Shown here piece by piece: positions 14,975-22,038 of a stretch of 64,000 nucleotides of DNA (position 1 is its first letter; every line of letters starts with the position of its first letter). The stretch covers positions 992,001 through 1,056,000 of the forward strand of contig NZ_FNSV01000005.1 of the NCBI RefSeq assembly GCF_900105905.1, written 5' to 3'. The DNA comes from Rhodococcus koreensis. Its GTDB lineage: Bacteria > Actinomycetota > Actinomycetes > Mycobacteriales > Mycobacteriaceae. Below the pieces are notes generated by a model. It did not search any database. It had not been told where the DNA came from and saw only the letters and a list, made by a program, of their open reading frames with translations. Made by a program: the position numbers and the translations under genes.

Positions 14975-16726
14975 TTGCCTACCGATTTCGTGTCCCACGT
15001 CCGCGCCCAGGTCGCCGTCTACGGCGACGACCGGTCCTACACCTACCACCGCGAGGTCGGCCGCGAACTCGTCGCCGAGGAAGTGACCTACCGCGAACTG
15101 GACCGGGACGCCCGCGCACTCGCGGTGTGGCTGTCGACGCGGCCCGAGGCCGAACACCCGGTGATGCTGCTGTACGTCGACGGAATCGACTTCCTCCGCG
15201 CGTTTCTCGGCTGCCTCTACGCCGGGGTGGTCGCCGTACCCGCACCGGTCCCGCACGACGAGCGCAGCATGCAGCGCGTCGCCACGATGTTCGCGGACGC
15301 CGACGTGCGCCTCGTGCTCACCACGTCCGCGGTCGCCGAACCGCTCGACAGCTGGATCCGCGAGTCCGGGCTCGCCGCCACGGTTTCCGTCGCCGCCACC
15401 GACACCGCCGAACTCGGCGACCCCGACCCCGACCACTGGCGCCTGCCCGGACTCGACGCCGGCACCCTGGCCTTCCTCCAGTACACGTCCGGTTCCACCA
15501 GCGAACCGAAGGGCGTGATGGTGACCCACGGAAACCTGCTGCACAACGCGGCCGCCATGACCGAGGCCAACGGCGCCGACGACACGGTGACCGGGGTCGG
15601 CTGGCTCCCGCACTTCCACGACATGGGGCTGATCGGCATGCTGCTGCTGCCGCTCTACTTCGGCGGCAACCTCGCGTTCATGTCGCCGATGGCCTTCCTC
15701 AAACGGCCGGTGCGCTGGTTGCAGCTGATCGACAGCTACCGCGCCGACATGACCCTCGGCCCGAACTTCGCGTACGACCTCGTCGCCCGCCGGATCCCCG
15801 ACGACCAACTGGCCGGGCTGGACTTGTCCTCGGTGCGGGTGGCGCTGAACGGGGCCGAACCCATCCGGCCCCGCACCCTCGACGCCGTGATCGACCGGCT
15901 CGGGCCCGTCGGTTTCCGGGCGGGTGCCTTCCTGACCGCGTACGGCATGGCCGAGGCGACCCTGCTCGCCACCGCCAGCGAGGTCGGCTGCGCCCCAAAG
16001 TATCTCGACGTCGACGCCGCCGCACTGGAGCGTCACGAACTGACGCCGAAGGCCGGCGGCGCCCGGCTGGTCGGCAGCGGCAGGCCGTTCGGGTGCGACA
16101 TCCGCATCGTCGACCCGCACACCGGCCGGGAGCAACCGCGCGGGCGGGTCGGGGAGATCTGGATCTCCGGCGGCAGCGTCGCCGCCGGCTACTGGAGACG
16201 GCCGGACGAGACCGCGGAGAAGTTCCGCGCCACTCTCGACGGCGACGGACCGTACCTGCGCACCGGCGACCTCGGGGTGTTCGACGACGGGCACCTCTAC
16301 GTCACCGGCCGCCTGAAGGACCTGCTGATCGTCAACGGCCGCAACCTGTACCCCCAGGACATCGAGGAGGCCGTGCGGGACCTGCATCCGGCGCTCACCG
16401 GTTCCGCCGGGGTGGTGTTCTCGCTCGACACCGGGCAGCACGAGCGGCTGCTGGTGATCCACGAGGTCAGGACCGCGCTGATCGACGACTTGACACTGCC
16501 CGCACTCGCCCGCCGGATCAGGCTCGGCGTCGCCCGGACCTTCGACGTCCACGCGCCGAGTGTGGTGCTGGTCGACCGCCGCGGCGTGCACCGCACCACC
16601 AGCGGGAAGGTCCAGCGCAGATCGATGCGCGCCTCGTTCCTCCGGTCCCGCGTCGACGCCGTCCTGCACGAGGACATCGACCCGGCGGTGCAGCGCCTCC
16701 GGACCACCACCGCCGTGCCCGCCTGA
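14975..16726 (+). CDS. fatty acyl-AMP ligase (FAAL) of the PKS/oxoamine operon (583 aa)
   Basis: Adenylates a free fatty acid and passes the acyl-AMP to an acyl carrier protein, bypassing CoA. The ANL-superfamily core is complete: QYTSGSTSEPKGVMVTHGNL (about 169-188), the FAAL-typical GVGWLPHFHDMGLIG, AYGMAEATL, RTGDLG and the C-terminal TTSGKVQRR (catalytic-type Lys about 545). The phrasing WLPHFHDMGLIG points to FAAL rather than acyl-CoA ligase. TTG start chosen because GGGAGAGAG precedes it; a GTG at 14990 is an alternative. First gene of the FAAL-ACP-PKS-TE operon; the acyl chain it loads probably starts the pathway. Confidence 0.92.
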   Translation: MPTDFVSHVRAQVAVYGDDRSYTYHREVGRELVAEEVTYRELDRDARALAVWLSTRPEAEHPVMLLYVDGIDFLRAFLGCLYAGVVAVPAPVPHDERSMQRVATMFADADVRLVLTTSAVAEPLDSWIRESGLAATVSVAATDTAELGDPDPDHWRLPGLDAGTLAFLQYTSGSTSEPKGVMVTHGNLLHNAAAMTEANGADDTVTGVGWLPHFHDMGLIGMLLLPLYFGGNLAFMSPMAFLKRPVRWLQLIDSYRADMTLGPNFAYDLVARRIPDDQLAGLDLSSVRVALNGAEPIRPRTLDAVIDRLGPVGFRAGAFLTAYGMAEATLLATASEVGCAPKYLDVDAAALERHELTPKAGGARLVGSGRPFGCDIRIVDPHTGREQPRGRVGEIWISGGSVAAGYWRRPDETAEKFRATLDGDGPYLRTGDLGVFDDGHLYVTGRLKDLLIVNGRNLYPQDIEEAVRDLHPALTGSAGVVFSLDTGQHERLLVIHEVRTALIDDLTLPALARRIRLGVARTFDVHAPSVVLVDRRGVHRTTSGKVQRRSMRASFLRSRVDAVLHEDIDPAVQRLRTTTAVPA

Positions 16727-16752
16727 CCCCGATCACCGACCAGGAGAACCCG

Positions 16753-17040
16753 ATGCCCGTCCCCGAGCAGATCACCCGCCGCGACCTCGCCCCCGTCATC
16801 GACTGGCTCGCCTGCCGGGTCGCCGATCACACCGAACGGCCGGTGCACGACGTCGATCCGCACCTCCCCCTCGCCGAGCTGGGAATCGAATCGGTGTCCG
16901 CGGTGAGCCTGTGCGGCGAGATCGAGGACCGGTGGGACCTCGAACTCGATCCGACCGTGGTGTTCGACTACCCGACGATCGCCGAGATGGCCGTCTTCGT
17001 CGTCGGCGAAACCGCACTGCGGCACCGGAAGGCCTCATGA
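16753..17040 (+). CDS. stand-alone acyl carrier protein (95 aa)
   Basis: Phosphopantetheine carrier protein. The attachment Ser is in LAELGIESVSAVSLC (about residue 43), and FDYPTIAEMAVFV is the usual helix IV motif. ATG with an AGGAG 6-7 nt upstream. It starts 26 nt after the FAAL stop, and its stop overlaps the PKS ATG (ATGA). Position and family knowledge make it the likely acceptor of the acyl chain activated by the upstream FAAL. Confidence 0.92.
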   Translation: MPVPEQITRRDLAPVIDWLACRVADHTERPVHDVDPHLPLAELGIESVSAVSLCGEIEDRWDLELDPTVVFDYPTIAEMAVFVVGETALRHRKAS

Positions 17041-20000
17041 CCGACGTCGCGATAGTCGGCCTCGACTGCCGCTTCCCGCAGGCCCCCGACCCCGCCGCAT
17101 TGTGGACGCTGCTGATGGAGGGCAGCGACGGCATCACCGACGTCCCCGCCGGACGCTGGAACGCGGACGTCGTGTTCGACGCCGCCGGTGGTCCCGGCAC
17201 CGTCAACAACCGCAGCGGCGGATTCCTCGCCGACGCGGACGCCTTCGACCACGACTTCTTCGGCATCGCACCCCGCGAGGCCGCGGCGATGGACCCGCAA
17301 CAGCGGCTGCTGCTGCAGGCGGCGTGGCGGGCGTTCGAGGACGCCGCACTCGATCCGCGGGCCCAGGCCGGTTCGAACACCGGCGTGTACGTCGGCGTCA
17401 TGGCCAACGAGTGGAATCTCCAGATGCGCGACCTCCCGCGCATCACCCCGCAGCTCGGCAGCGGCAACGGCTATTTCATGACCGCCAACCGGGTCTCTTA
17501 CCAGCTGAACCTGCAGGGCCCGAGCATGGCGATCGACACCGCCTGCTCGTCGTCGCTCGTCGCCGTCCACCTGGCCTGCGCGGCGCTGCGGTCCGGGGAC
17601 TGCGACCAGGCCCTCGCCGGGGGCGTCAACCTGACCCTGACCCCCACGGTGAACGTCTTCTACACGCAGGCCGGGCTGTCCGCGCCGGACGGCAGGTGCA
17701 AACCGTTCAGCGGTGCGGCCGACGGAATCGGCCGCGGCGAGGGGGTCGCGGTACTCGTGTTGCGCCGGCTCGCGGACGCGCAGGCGGAGGGCCTGCCGAT
17801 CTACGCCGTGATCAAGGGCAGCGCCGTCAACAACGACGGCCGCAGCAACGGGATCACCGCCCCCAACCGCTGGGCCCAGCAGCAGGTCGTCGAGAAGGCG
17901 TACCGGCGTGCGGGTGTCACGCCCGCACAGGTCGCGTTCGTCGAGGCGCACGGCACCGGGACGGTGCTCGGCGACATGATCGAGATCAAGGCCCTCGGTC
18001 ACGTCCACGCGGTGCCCCGCCCGCGGCCGTGCGCGATCGGGTCGATCAAGGGCAATCTCGGTCACACCGAGGGCGCGGCCGGGGTGGCCGGACTGATCAA
18101 GGCAGCCCTGGCGCTGCACCACCGGGTGGTGCCGCCCAGCCGCGGCGCGGCGGACGTCAACCCGCGGCTCCGGTTGGCGGACAACGGTCTTCAGATCCTG
18201 TCGGAGCCGATGCCGCTGCCCGGCGGCGACGTGCACGGCGCCGTGAGCAGTTTCGGGCTCGGCGGCACCAACGCCCACCTGCTGCTCGCCGCGGCGCCCG
18301 CCGGCGAGCAGCACGCGGCGAGCACGGGCGGCGGCGTGCTCACCCTGTCGTCGAACGACCGGGACGGCCTCGCCCGCACCGCCGCCGCCCTGGCCGACGA
18401 TCTGCTCGCCCACCCCCACGCCGAACTGGGCCGGGTGTGCTGGAGCACGAACACGGTCAAGGCATCCGGGCGCCACCGGCTCGCGCTCCCCGCCCACGAC
18501 CGGGAGGAGGCCGTCGCGGCGCTGCGCGCGGCGGCCGGTGACGAACACCTGCTCGAGTCGCTGTCCGGGACGGCCCGCCCGGTCAGCGTCGGCTGGTTCT
18601 TCACCGGGCAGGGCGCGCAGTACCCGGGAATGTCCCGCGCCCTGCACGAGAAGCACGGCGCGTACCGGCGGGCGCTGTCCGACGTGGACGAGCGGATGAC
18701 CCCGCACCTGGGCCGCTCGGTCCGGGACGTGCTGTTCGGCACCGGCGAAGACATCCACCGCACCGAGTTCGCGCAACCCGCCCTGTTCGCGGTCGAGTAC
18801 GCGCTGGCCCGGACGCTCGGTGAACTGGGCATCGAACCGGCGTGGCTGATCGGCCACAGCGTCGGCGAATACGCGGCCGCCGCCCACGCAGGCGTGTTCG
18901 GCCTGGACGACGCGTGCCGGCTGATCGTCGCGCGGGGACGGCTCATGCAGCAACTACCCGCCGGCGGCACGATGCTGGCGGTGCGGGCCACCCCGGACGA
19001 CGTCGCCGCCCTGCTCGCCGGCGAACCCGCGGCCGCACTGGCGGCGGTGAACGGGCCGCGGGACGTGGTGCTGTCGGGGGCGGCAGACGCCGTCGACCGG
19101 ATCGGCGCCGCGCTGACCGCGGCCGGAGTCCCCGTCCGCAGGCTCACCGTCTCGCACGCCTTCCACTCCCCCGCGATGGCACCGATCCGGGACGCGTTCG
19201 CCGAGGTCGCCGCCGACTGCACGTACAGGCCGCCCGAGATCCCGATCTTCTCCACCACCCGGGGGCGGCTCCTCGACGTCGACGAACCGATGGACGCGAC
19301 CTACTGGACCGACCACATCACGGCCACCGTGCGCTTCGCGGACGCCACCGCGGCCGCCCTGACCTGCGATCCCACCCACCTGATCGAGGTGGGCCCCGCA
19401 CGAATCCTGTTGCCGCTGACCGCCCGCGCCCATCCCGGCTCGCCGGCGCGGCACCTGGCGCCGTGCCCCGGCCCGGCCGCCACCGGCGACGAACTCCCCG
19501 CAACCGTCGCCGCCCTGTACCGGGACGGCCACGACCCGGCGTGGGACGCGCTGTACGAGCCGGGCACCCGGGTCCGCCGGCGACTGCGCGGGTACCCGTT
19601 CGCGACCACCGCCCGCTTCTGGACACCCGAGAACGCACCCACCGCGGCGCAACCCGCCGAACCCGCACCACCCACCGTCGCTGCCGAGCCCGAGGACACC
19701 ACCATGGACCACCTGATCGCTCTGTTCCGGGAGCAGGCCGCCGTGCTCGCCGCCGCCGCCGGTGTCCCCGGGACGGGACTGTCCGTCCCGGGGGCGACAC
19801 CGGACACCGCGCCCGGTCCAGCGGCGTCGGCCGGCGACACCGCGACCCGGGTGCGCGCGGAAGTCGCACGGGTCAGCGGATTCCCCGCGGCCGCGCTGAC
19901 CGCGACGCAGACGATCGCCGGCGACCTCGGATTCGACTCGATCATGATCACCGACCTGTTCGGCGGGTTGCGCCGCGCATTCCCCGGTCTCGTCGTCGAA

Positions 20001-21332
20001 CCGGACTGGTTCACACCGGGCCGCACGCTCGGCGAGGTGATCGACCACGTGACGGCGCACCGCGTCCCCGGGTCGCGGCCCGCCGTGACGCCCGTCCCGG
20101 ACCCGGAACCGGCGGTGGCACCCGAGTTCCGCATCGCCGACTTCCCGGAGGTGCAGGCGCTCGCCGCACGGCTGACCGCCGCCGAGGGGCTCGGCGTCAC
20201 CAACCCGTACTTCCTCGTCAACGACGGCGTCACCCGGGACACGTCGACGATCGACGGCGCGGAGGTCCTCAACTTCTCCAGCTACAACTACCTCGGCATG
20301 TCCGGGCACCCGGCCGTCGTCTCCGCGGTCCAGGACGCCGTCGCCCGCTACGGCAGCTCCTGCTCGGCCAGCCGCGTGCTGTCCGGGGAGAAACCGGTAC
20401 ACCGCGAACTCGAGGCCGCACTGGCCGGGCTGCTCGGAACCGACGACGCCATCGCCCTCGTCAGCGGGCACGCCACCAACGTCACGGTCATCGGCCACCT
20501 CCTCGGGGAGGGTGACCTCGTCGTCCACGACAGCCTCGCGCACGACAGCATCCTGCAGGGTTGCGCACTGTCCGGCGCCACCCGGCGCCCGTTCCCGCAC
20601 AACGACCACGCGGCGCTCGATGCCCTGCTCACCGCGATCCGCTCGCGGTACCGGCGGGTCCTCATTCTCATCGAGGGCGTGTACAGCCAGGACGGCGACA
20701 TTCCCGACCTGCCCGCGATGATCACGGTGAAGAAGAAGCACCAGGCGCTGATGATGATCGACGAGGCGCACAGCATCGGGGTGCTCGGCGCCACCGGCGG
20801 CGGCATCGGCGAGCACTTCGGCGTCGACCGCGACGACGTGGAATTGTGGTCGGGCACGATGTCGAAGGCGCTGGCCGGGTGCGGCGGCTATGTCGCGGGC
20901 AGCGCCGAACTGATCCGGTTCCTGAAGTACACGACGCCCGGCTTCGTCTACAGCGTCGGGATGACGCCGATGAATGCCGCGGCGTCCCTGGCCGCGATCC
21001 GGCAGATGCGCGCCGAACCCGAGGCCCTCGGCAGGTTGCGTCGCAACTCCCGGCTGTTCCTGCAACTCGCCGCGGACGCCGGAATCGACACCGGGGACAG
21101 CGGGGACACCCCGGTCATCCCCTGCATCGTCGGGGATTCACTACGCACCCTCGCGCTGTCGGGTGCGCTGCTCCGGCGCGGCATCAACGTCAACCCCATC
21201 CTCTACCCGGCGGTGCCGGAGAATCTCGCGCGGTTGCGCTTCTTCGTCACCTCCTGCCACACCGAGGACCAGATCCGGTCCACCGTGGCGGCTCTCGCCG
21301 AGGAACTCGGCGCGCTCGCCGCGGCCGCGTAG
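17037..21332 (+). CDS. KS-AT-ACP polyketide synthase fused to an alpha-oxoamine synthase (1431 aa)
   Basis: One-module megasynthase. KS domain 1-425 with catalytic Cys170 (DTACSSSL), His305 (EAHGTGT) and His343. AT domain about 518-830 with Ser608 (GHSVGEY) and HAFH at 707-710, the malonyl-CoA signature. ACP about 930-1010 with Ser968 (LGFDSIM). The C-terminal 390 residues (about 1035-1425) are a PLP-dependent alpha-oxoamine synthase with FSSYNYLGMSGHP, DEAHSIGVLG and the Schiff-base Lys1277 (GTMSKALAG). No KR, DH, ER or thioesterase domain is present. Expected chemistry: one malonyl extension of the FAAL-supplied acyl chain gives a beta-ketoacyl-ACP; the AOS domain then condenses it with an amino acid, losing CO2 and releasing an alpha-aminoketone. 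Related chemistry is known for PigH/RedN of prodiginine biosynthesis. The product here is undetermined. Confidence 0.93.
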   Translation: MTDVAIVGLDCRFPQAPDPAALWTLLMEGSDGITDVPAGRWNADVVFDAAGGPGTVNNRSGGFLADADAFDHDFFGIAPREAAAMDPQQRLLLQAAWRAFEDAALDPRAQAGSNTGVYVGVMANEWNLQMRDLPRITPQLGSGNGYFMTANRVSYQLNLQGPSMAIDTACSSSLVAVHLACAALRSGDCDQALAGGVNLTLTPTVNVFYTQAGLSAPDGRCKPFSGAADGIGRGEGVAVLVLRRLADAQAEGLPIYAVIKGSAVNNDGRSNGITAPNRWAQQQVVEKAYRRAGVTPAQVAFVEAHGTGTVLGDMIEIKALGHVHAVPRPRPCAIGSIKGNLGHTEGAAGVAGLIKAALALHHRVVPPSRGAADVNPRLRLADNGLQILSEPMPLPGGDVHGAVSSFGLGGTNAHLLLAAAPAGEQHAASTGGGVLTLSSNDRDGLARTAAALADDLLAHPHAELGRVCWSTNTVKASGRHRLALPAHDREEAVAALRAAAGDEHLLESLSGTARPVSVGWFFTGQGAQYPGMSRALHEKHGAYRRALSDVDERMTPHLGRSVRDVLFGTGEDIHRTEFAQPALFAVEYALARTLGELGIEPAWLIGHSVGEYAAAAHAGVFGLDDACRLIVARGRLMQQLPAGGTMLAVRATPDDVAALLAGEPAAALAAVNGPRDVVLSGAADAVDRIGAALTAAGVPVRRLTVSHAFHSPAMAPIRDAFAEVAADCTYRPPEIPIFSTTRGRLLDVDEPMDATYWTDHITATVRFADATAAALTCDPTHLIEVGPARILLPLTARAHPGSPARHLAPCPGPAATGDELPATVAALYRDGHDPAWDALYEPGTRVRRRLRGYPFATTARFWTPENAPTAAQPAEPAPPTVAAEPEDTTMDHLIALFREQAAVLAAAAGVPGTGLSVPGATPDTAPGPAASAGDTATRVRAEVARVSGFPAAALTATQTIAGDLGFDSIMITDLFGGLRRAFPGLVVEPDWFTPGRTLGEVIDHVTAHRVPGSRPAVTPVPDPEPAVAPEFRIADFPEVQALAARLTAAEGLGVTNPYFLVNDGVTRDTSTIDGAEVLNFSSYNYLGMSGHPAVVSAVQDAVARYGSSCSASRVLSGEKPVHRELEAALAGLLGTDDAIALVSGHATNVTVIGHLLGEGDLVVHDSLAHDSILQGCALSGATRRPFPHNDHAALDALLTAIRSRYRRVLILIEGVYSQDGDIPDLPAMITVKKKHQALMMIDEAHSIGVLGATGGGIGEHFGVDRDDVELWSGTMSKALAGCGGYVAGSAELIRFLKYTTPGFVYSVGMTPMNAAASLAAIRQMRAEPEALGRLRRNSRLFLQLAADAGIDTGDSGDTPVIPCIVGDSLRTLALSGALLRRGINVNPILYPAVPENLARLRFFVTSCHTEDQIRSTVAALAEELGALAAAA

Positions 21333-21336
21333 CGCC

Positions 21337-22038
21337 GTGCCCCTCCGGCTGTTCTGCTTCCCGCACGCCGGCGGCGGGCCCACGACGTACCGCCACTGGC
21401 ACCGCGCCCTGGGCCCGCACGTGTCGGTGCGGCCCGTGCACCTGCCCCGGTGCGCGGGCGGGGCCGGGTTCACCGACGTCGATTCCCTCGTCGCCGCACT
21501 CGACTCCGAACTCGCCGAACAGCTCACGGCGCCGCACGTGTTCTTCGGCCACAGCATGGGTGCGCTGGTGGCGTACCGGCTCGCGTGCCGTCGGCGCGCG
21601 AGCGGTCACCCACTCCCGCGGGCGCTGCTGCTGTCCGGGTACGCGGCGCCGCACCTGCCCGCACCGCTACCGCCGGTCGACGGCCTGGACGACGCGGCCC
21701 TGATCGCGGTGCTGCGCGCCGCCGGGGATGTTCCCGCCGGCCTCCCGGACCTGCCGGACTTCCTGGACCGCTACCTTCCCGCGCTGCGCGACGATCTGCG
21801 CCTGTGCACCGCCTTCCGCGACCCCGCAGACCCGCCGCTCAGCTGCCCGGCGCACGTGTTCGGCGGGGACGCCGACCCGCTGGTCGGCGAGCGGGAACTG
21901 CACGCCTGGGATCGGCACACCACACGGCTGTCCGGGGTGCGCATGCTGGCGGGCGATCACTTCTACCTCGACCACGCACCCGAACAGCTCTTCCGGGTAC
22001 TCCGGCCGCTGCTGCGCCGCTACGCCGCGGCCGGGTAG
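21337..22038 (+). CDS. type II thioesterase (RifR/GrsT-like) (233 aa)
   Basis: Alpha/beta hydrolase that usually clears misprimed acyl groups from PKS/NRPS carrier proteins. Nucleophile Ser73 in GHSMGALVAY, Asp180 in GGDADPLV and His208 in AGDHFYLDH form the triad; the N-terminus LFCFPHAGGGPTTYRHW is typical. GTG start 4 nt after the PKS stop, same operon. Because the megasynthase releases its product through the AOS domain, this enzyme is more likely an editor than the releasing thioesterase. Ends 7 bp from the convergent SPFH gene, which closes the cluster. Confidence 0.92.
   Translation: MPLRLFCFPHAGGGPTTYRHWHRALGPHVSVRPVHLPRCAGGAGFTDVDSLVAALDSELAEQLTAPHVFFGHSMGALVAYRLACRRRASGHPLPRALLLSGYAAPHLPAPLPPVDGLDDAALIAVLRAAGDVPAGLPDLPDFLDRYLPALRDDLRLCTAFRDPADPPLSCPAHVFGGDADPLVGERELHAWDRHTTRLSGVRMLAGDHFYLDHAPEQLFRVLRPLLRRYAAAG

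Follow-up and report, generated by a model that had tools for sequence, protein, structure and literature searches.

What does Rhodococcus koreensis make with a compact operon that couples fatty acid activation to a one-module polyketide synthase (PKS) ending in an alpha-oxoamine synthase (AOS)? On the forward strand of the 64,000-nucleotide stretch of DNA analysed here (the window), four tightly spaced genes encode a fatty acyl-AMP ligase (FAAL), a free acyl carrier protein (ACP), a protein with ketosynthase (KS), acyltransferase (AT), ACP and AOS domains (KS-AT-ACP-AOS, or PKS-AOS) and a type II thioesterase (TEII). A first, sequence-only reading had taken these for four coupled same-strand genes, which the coordinates and domain matches bear out, and for a candidate uncharacterised pathway giving a lipid-derived aminoketone. 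Here, we argue that the operon is probably an assembly line of the RedL/RedJ type split into separate genes, which would yield a 2-alkyl-4-oxopyrroline or hydroxypyrrole lipid; we infer this product, as we do every substrate and the ring closure, with every RedL/RedJ part present and no RedK-like gene found.

The arrangement has a precedent in RedL, from undecylprodiginine biosynthesis in Streptomyces, a single polypeptide with the same FAAL-ACP-KS-AT-ACP-AOS order and a nearby TEII. In the account given by PMC11188435, RedL extends a dodecanoyl chain with one malonyl unit and joins the beta-ketomyristoyl thioester to glycine by means of pyridoxal phosphate (PLP), after which the product cyclises to 4-keto-2-undecylpyrroline and RedK converts this to 2-undecylpyrrole; the role described for RedJ is to aid dodecanoyl transfer from RedQ to RedL (PMC4147253). 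When the window AOS was used as a query against 392 Streptomyces genomes, 88 had a match at E 1e-72, with rows at 64-68% and 56-62% identity in frames mostly of about 1100-2300 amino acids (aa) (the strepA and strepB groups), 17 rows at 52-55% (16 of them from frames spanning 2204-3431 aa) and others at 39-46%. Six loci examined from the 52-55% rows (L181-L186) form our RedL set, and in all six the protein, 2188-2695 aa long, is collinear with the window FAAL, ACP and PKS-AOS, at identities of 41-45%, 29-40% and 40-43% (nearly full length), respectively. Each also has a TEII-like gene, 38-41% identical, within about 1 kb (the L185 copy ends at the locus edge), as judged on gene maps that, for all relatives, come from a rough frame-bias gene caller. 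L182 has as neighbours a FabF-like and a FabH-like protein, a second AOS and an amino-acid adenylation protein, which mark a red-type cluster, the FabF-like, FabH-like and adenylation neighbours being presumably the usual red set; the second AOS protein recurs at the corresponding position in L181 and L183, whose other neighbours are judged by size and order alone. The nearest solved chains to the window TEII, 3qmw/3qmv (3.5e-36), rank above RifR, and we take these entries, titled just 'Thioesterase', to be RedJ itself.

The window line departs from RedL in being three adjacent proteins rather than a single polypeptide, in its taxon, in one AOS residue discussed below and in having no RedK-like gene fused or adjacent and no other red genes recognised. 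L181-L183 carry a RedK-like reductase as a C-terminal fusion and L184-L186 have one as a neighbouring open reading frame (ORF), so that it accompanies 6/6 RedL loci, a count that includes the query, the L184 ORF; a redL-redK fusion also appears in a published red cluster (PMC8102152). The same query found no match at E 1e-10 in 24 loci with the operon from mycolic-acid bacteria (mycolata; L054-L070 plus seven named loci, L056 being the same as L074), nor at E 1e-20 across 69 named loci. It might be supposed from the RedL/RedJ likeness that the strain makes a complete prodiginine-like pigment, with the operon supplying its monopyrrole, an idea that we consider close to implausible, because the Pfam survey of flanking ORFs recognised no RedN-, RedM-, RedO-, RedX-, RedH- or RedK-type gene (no genome-wide search for the other red genes was made), the AOS query turned up no more than two further AOS genes in that genome (at 37% and 30% identity), and the nearest RedK-like genes there are 31-32% identical.

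The individual proteins fit their assigned roles (Table 1). The FAAL matches the Pfam AMP-binding family (1.2e-63) and, just under its cut-off, the DIP2-like AMP domain PF23024 (1e-05); FAAL models rank among its best NCBIfam matches, none exceeding its own cut-off, and its best solved relatives are 7r7f ('Polyketide synthase', 7e-130), 3kxw, FadD23 and FadD32. It carries the motifs YTSGST, YGMAE, RTGD, GRLKD and TTSGK, and aligned with 7r7f and 3kxw it shows no large gap past YGMAE, where we take the FAAL-specific insertion to lie. The best solved match of the free ACP is the discrete ACP 2n98 (1.5e-11), with the N-terminal part of Pks13 among the next. Along the PKS-AOS, Pfam finds ketoacyl-synt (4.5e-87), Acyl_transf_1 (3.3e-57), PP-binding (2.9e-08) and Aminotran_1_2 (8.5e-39), and the TEII matches Thioesterase (2.4e-34). 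The AT has HAFH at 707 and lacks the YASH motif, and HAFH rather than YASH is the mark of a malonyl-specific AT. The six catalytic residues named at the outset, Cys170, His305, His343, Ser608, Ser968 and Lys1277, were all verified in the 1431-aa protein and are invariant across 16 aligned sequences (window plus 15 relatives), as are the AOS hallmarks K1277, D1242-H1245 and R1401, the last with a putative carboxylate-binding role by analogy with R378/R390 of serine palmitoyltransferase (SPT; PMC11906848).

Table 1. The operon genes and the AOS domain, with positions in the window
Feature	Position	Strand	Details
Fatty acyl-AMP ligase (FAAL)	14975..16726	+	583 aa; start TTG 14975, alternative GTG 14990
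Free acyl carrier protein	16753..17040	+	95 aa; ATG start; phosphopantetheine Ser47 in GIES
KS-AT-ACP-AOS megasynthase	17037..21332	+	1431 aa; ATG start; Pfam domains in this order
Alpha-oxoamine synthase domain	20160..21329	+	residues 1042-1431; PLP Lys1277, DEAH 1242-1245, His1145, Arg1401, selectivity Ser1112
Type II thioesterase (TEII)	21337..22038	+	233 aa; GTG start; motifs GHSMG / GDADP / GDH

The genes are closely coupled, the PKS ATG overlapping the ACP stop by 4 bases and the TEII starting 4 bases past the PKS stop, and two measures show that the operon is not a chance arrangement of frames. The two long frames holding FAAL and PKS-AOS have third-position GC values of 0.84 and 0.88 (the list was filtered, and the ACP and TEII frames lie outside it), and the ratio of non-synonymous to synonymous substitution (dN/dS), across the copies of six relatives (L054-L058, L063), is 0.15-0.39 for FAAL and 0.20-0.27 for PKS-AOS, both of which are under purifying selection. 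Constraint is weaker for the ACP (0.20-0.52, five copies) and the TEII (0.29-0.61, six copies). No promoter-like site was found, and the three terminator-like sites, against 1.7 expected, are uninformative.

From these parts a route can be proposed. The FAAL would convert a free fatty acid into an acyl-AMP and load the chain onto the free ACP, and it is this pairing that suggests free fatty acids as the feed. The acyl chain would then move to the KS, the AT would put malonyl on the in-cis ACP, and the KS would carry out a single decarboxylative extension to a beta-ketoacyl-ACP, which should be left unreduced because Pfam finds no ketoreductase, dehydratase or enoylreductase domain in the line. 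The PLP-dependent AOS would join this chain to a small amino acid (glycine, serine or alanine) with loss of CO2, releasing R-CO-CH2-CO-CH(NH2)-R', whose amine could attack the distal ketone and close, probably without an enzyme, to a 5-alkyl-pyrrolin-3-one or 3-hydroxypyrrole; with glycine, this would be a 4-keto-2-alkylpyrroline as in the RedL pathway. Because no RedK-like gene is present, the ring oxygen would be retained, leaving an alkyl hydroxypyrrole or pyrrolinone lipid. The TEII may supply the free acid or clear misloaded carriers, in the manner of RedJ and other type II thioesterases.

The joining of fatty acyl, malonyl and amino acid units proposed at the outset is thus likely to stand; the open-chain aminoketone as end product is not, since a beta-ketoacyl thioester and an amino acid would give an amino-diketone, which closes to a ring in the RedL and PigH/RedN steps as PMC11188435 presents them. 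A free alpha-aminoketone (a 2-amino-3,5-dione lipid), or an acyclic derivative of it such as an N-acyl or reduced form, is in our judgement unlikely to be the true product. The intact AOS domain, the lack of any recognised dedicated cyclase or RedK beside the operon, and a report that another AOS gives aminoketones out of plain acyl-CoAs (PMC10230504) all agree with it, but the KS and AT are intact too, so that a beta-ketoacyl thioester is what the AOS should receive.

Which amino acid is used may be read in part from the AOS. In ThAOS, position 79 is one determinant of amino-acid choice, being valine in 2-amino-3-ketobutyrate CoA ligase (KBL), serine in 8-amino-7-oxononanoate synthase (AONS) and SPT, and threonine in 5-aminolevulinate synthase (ALAS); the V79S variant took glycine, alanine, serine and L-2-aminobutyrate, and V79T was active with alanine only (PMC11906848). 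Window Ser1112 aligns with this position (alanine in 8s1y, the V79A variant; valine in 7poa), and serine fills the column in all 28 mycolata rows, 6/6 strepA and 3/3 RedN rows, 4/6 strepB rows (two have alanine) and 12/14 rows of the 43% group (two have threonine). Ser1112 leans towards serine or alanine and proves nothing, because ThAOS V79S accepts all four of the amino acids just named and V79T alanine alone; on account of this residue, glycine as the sole amino acid was not adopted.

The match of Ser1112 to SPT, together with the finding that the closest solved structures of the AOS domain are SPTs (best 3a2b, 3.7e-69), raises a sphingoid route, in which the AOS would act like SPT on a plain acyl-ACP, with KS-AT bypassed or otherwise used, to give a 3-ketosphinganine-like base. 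A PKS-linked AOS making sphingolipids is indeed described in Pseudomonas, where SgaAB combines a PKS and an AOS to form an amino lipid, but there an iterative type I PKS works with a separate AOS protein that has SPT activity (PMC12134224), whereas the window line has no reducing domain. The KS and AT residues are kept in a protein under purifying selection, and the AOS reaches 295.8 bits against the SPT model NF047600, whose NCBIfam cut-off is 640; on these cut-offs a direct SPT assignment was rejected. We regard the sphingoid route as very unlikely, noting that the AOS tree described below contained no SPT row and so is no direct test of it.

Several observations weigh against the RedL-type reading. 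The selectivity column is threonine in 6/6 RedL rows, where the window has Ser1112; no RedP/Q/R-like fatty-acid supply genes were recognised by Pfam among the ORFs flanking the operon; the RedK label rests on OleD-type reductase likeness (NCBIfam) and the published fusion, with a query taken from L184; and no product or activity was found reported for any member in open-licence literature. Downstream TEII was detected by sequence in just 14 of 52 full-length named loci, and the TEII is therefore not essential to the line. The trees, too, count against it: in both the KS-AT and FAAL trees the nearest relatives of the mycolata are a Streptomyces FAAL-ACP-KS-AT-ACP system that lacks an AOS, RedL falls outside the two, and a KS-AT clade of mycolata and RedL is rejected (approximately unbiased test, p-AU 9.6e-07).

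In the AOS tree (72 rows), the 28 mycolata rows form one clade (SH-aLRT support 99), nearest to strepA plus strepB (91), with RedL and a single row, L039, next (96); RedN and the BioF/Kbl-like rows fall outside this group. A tree constrained to unite mycolata with RedL is not rejected here (p-AU 0.19), so RedL may also be the closest AOS sister. All three trees come from quick, non-bootstrapped searches and carry long-branch warnings; KS-AT spans of at least 650 residues were kept (L188 and L193-L196 dropped) and FAAL spans of at least 400 (L055, with its FAAL in two pieces, dropped), with L061 and L066 outside both. Our first idea, that an AOS had been grafted onto a foreign KS-AT chassis, is not required by these trees. 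Since the FAAL, KS-AT and AOS trees all place RedL outside the clade formed by the window group and its nearest sister, shared descent, with the Streptomyces KAS III-type system losing its AOS later, would fit as well.

That Streptomyces system (L118-L123, L125-L129, L134 and L136) resembles the window in its FAAL (44-47% identical where seen) and KS-AT-ACP (47-51%) and differs in that no AOS was matched there, which points to a putative other release route on a related line. The genes that follow the line in the single annotated locus, L128, encode a KAS III-like protein, a protein of 672 aa that Pfam does not match, an ACP and an alpha/beta hydrolase. L011 stands beside the mycolata and this system in the KS-AT tree. 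In one family genome (G063), a 58% identical AOS (L039/L071) in a 460-aa frame adjoins KS-AT-type and FAAL-like proteins, possibly an even more split arrangement.

Other known systems share single features with the window line. In PigH, RedN and TamD, an AOS joins a carrier-bound beta-ketoacyl chain to an amino acid before ring formation (PMC11188435; the TamD role as proposed in a meeting abstract, PMC4698589), but these ACP-AOS proteins of bipyrrole formation use serine, have no KS-AT in the protein and sit on a separate AOS branch, RedN-type rows being about 39% identical to the window AOS. The FadD32-Pks13 pair is similar in that a FAAL passes its chain to an ACP-KS-AT-ACP line. Its PKS, Pks13, serves mycolate condensation and has a C-terminal thioesterase where the window protein has an AOS; the window protein scores 613 against the NCBIfam Pks13 model, whose cut-off is 2100.

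The stand-alone PKS-AOS proteins of strepA and strepB have the closest AOS found outside the mycolata, at 56-68% identity, but their KS-AT is distant in the KS-AT tree and the window FAAL has no match in the 12 loci examined. Seven of these 12 have an MMPL-family gene nearby (beside the PKS-AOS in 5/6 strepA and near it in 2/6 strepB loci), and such a gene is close to the operon in 9/52 full-length named loci, downstream in L081, L092, L097, L099, L101, L106, L114 and L142 and upstream in L138. L079 has a distant MMPL (32%) on the opposite strand, and L059, outside the 52, has one downstream. Pfam confirmed the family in L058 (the same as L142), L069 (the same as L099), L081, L114, L106, L180, L187, L189 and L190, and none was found among the ORFs annotated around the window operon. 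In strepB locus L191, the genes after the PKS-AOS encode a Gfo/Idh/MocA protein, an acyl-CoA dehydrogenase and a relative of AvrD, a protein tied to syringolide formation. These exporters, with the fact that no tailoring gene was seen common to the lineages, leave room for finishing enzymes that are unlinked and would alter the AOS product, for example into a pyrazine dimer or a glycosylated lipid with MMPL export, a fate that we rate as distinctly unlikely, as the window ORFs show no such enzymes.

The operon is not specifically rhodococcal. A pattern-based scan of named genomes, which is not a census, found the 69 named loci, of which 52 are full length with AOS: 33 Nocardia, 6 Mycobacterium, 5 Rhodococcus, 3 Antrihabitans, 2 Mycolicibacterium, and one each from Skermania, Smaragdicoccus and a genome without genus name. 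The upstream FAAL is present in 51/52 and the ACP, at a permissive threshold, in 49/52. Some genomes are counted under several labels (L056/L074, L057/L075 and L058/L142, for instance), so locus counts do not equal independent species. Full-length KS-AT-ACP-AOS occurs in 7/28 genomes of the genus, and AOS of at least 80% identity in 15/201 sampled genomes of the family, the strain's own genome being counted in each; orthologues are patchy among mycolic-acid bacteria. Viral contigs scanned with the PKS-AOS gave no confirmed relative. In 12 Nocardia loci an ORF of 532-535 aa, judged by size, comes next after the PKS-AOS, the one annotated (L085:14677-16281) being a carboxylesterase; this may be shared synteny only. 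The second AOS of the strain's own genome (L002, G000:C3:6468163-6469311; the 37% match) lies in an 849-aa frame with a long N-terminal part, which recalls the additional domain that has been described at the N-terminus of BioF2 (Rv0032; PMC12910592), and genus and family genomes hold a separate AOS clade (L040-L053), 42-46% identical, in frames mostly of about 450-1440 aa (2655 aa in L040).

At the chromosomal level, the operon is an accessory insert, retained in some lineages and decayed in others, as the contents of its site across relatives indicate. Its left flank consists of mutA/mutB/meaB, genes for a hotdog thioesterase and a VTT membrane protein, and a SatD-like gene; to its right, an SPFH gene is convergent with TEII (7 bases stop-to-stop), and DUF3097, ferrochelatase, reductases that by position are presumably InhA-like and FabG-like, and BatA/MoxR-like genes are also found there. 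Five other genomes of the genus (L054, L055, L056, L058, L059) have the operon at this site, and in R. jostii (L057, same contig as L075) it is located elsewhere. The SPFH gene was present in 22/22 genomes searched, and in the 12 whose adjoining stretch was compared no intact operon was found (0/12). Eight of these (L223-L230) have no operon-gene match at the site, SatD and VTT genes lying within about 5 kb of SPFH in seven (neither is in range in L230). In L219 (G005) and L220 (G007), TEII and PKS fragments of up to 91% identity, with other ORFs between, mark a decayed pathway. A single very long PKS frame takes the operon's place in L221 and L222 (G027, G004), a 3536-aa two-module type I PKS in the latter, which suggests an insertion spot used repeatedly for biosynthetic genes.

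Among syntenic copies, synonymous divergence (dS) of the operon is near or somewhat above that of the neighbouring genes (L056: 0.26, against 0.25 for MutA and 0.20 for SPFH; L058: 0.71, against 0.51 and 0.50), which fits inheritance along with the locus in that group. In L055 (12605-14467; G008), the FAAL match is split over two frames, with ACP, PKS-AOS and TEII matching at full length, so that the gene is disrupted or the sequence in error. The methylmalonyl-CoA mutase neighbours were rejected as part of the pathway, given the malonyl-type AT motif and the presence of the same genes at the site in relatives without the operon.

Open-licence literature names no product of a split FAAL/ACP/KS-AT-ACP-AOS operon from Rhodococcus or Nocardia, in the portions that our search covered, in keeping with the initial remark that no rhodococcal product is described, though this is weak evidence of absence. 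PMC3870968 mentions two proteins, an A-CP-KS-AT-PLP one from Streptomyces griseoviridis and an A-CP-Luc-PLP one from Nocardia; the FAAL review PMC11837247 names Rhodococcus for FAAL occurrence only, and in the Rhodococcus genome survey PMC5550956 no such cluster was noticed.

The comparison with RedL/RedJ links an uncharacterised operon of Rhodococcus, Nocardia and several Mycobacterium-type genomes to described chemistry, and puts a specific class of structures, open to testing, in place of an unknown aminoketone. The serine at position 1112, where RedL has threonine, offers a natural experiment on the amino-acid choice of an AOS. As a tentative and still doubtful extension, long-chain alkyl hydroxypyrroles or pyrrolinones incorporating serine or alanine (hydroxymethyl or methyl) might be an undescribed class of envelope or secreted lipids of many mycolic-acid bacteria, made by a split RedL-type line no longer tied to prodiginine biosynthesis and, in some lineages, exported by a dedicated MMPL pump. 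The operon may stand for a pyrrole-type lipid of these bacteria, with an MMPL exporter in some lineages.

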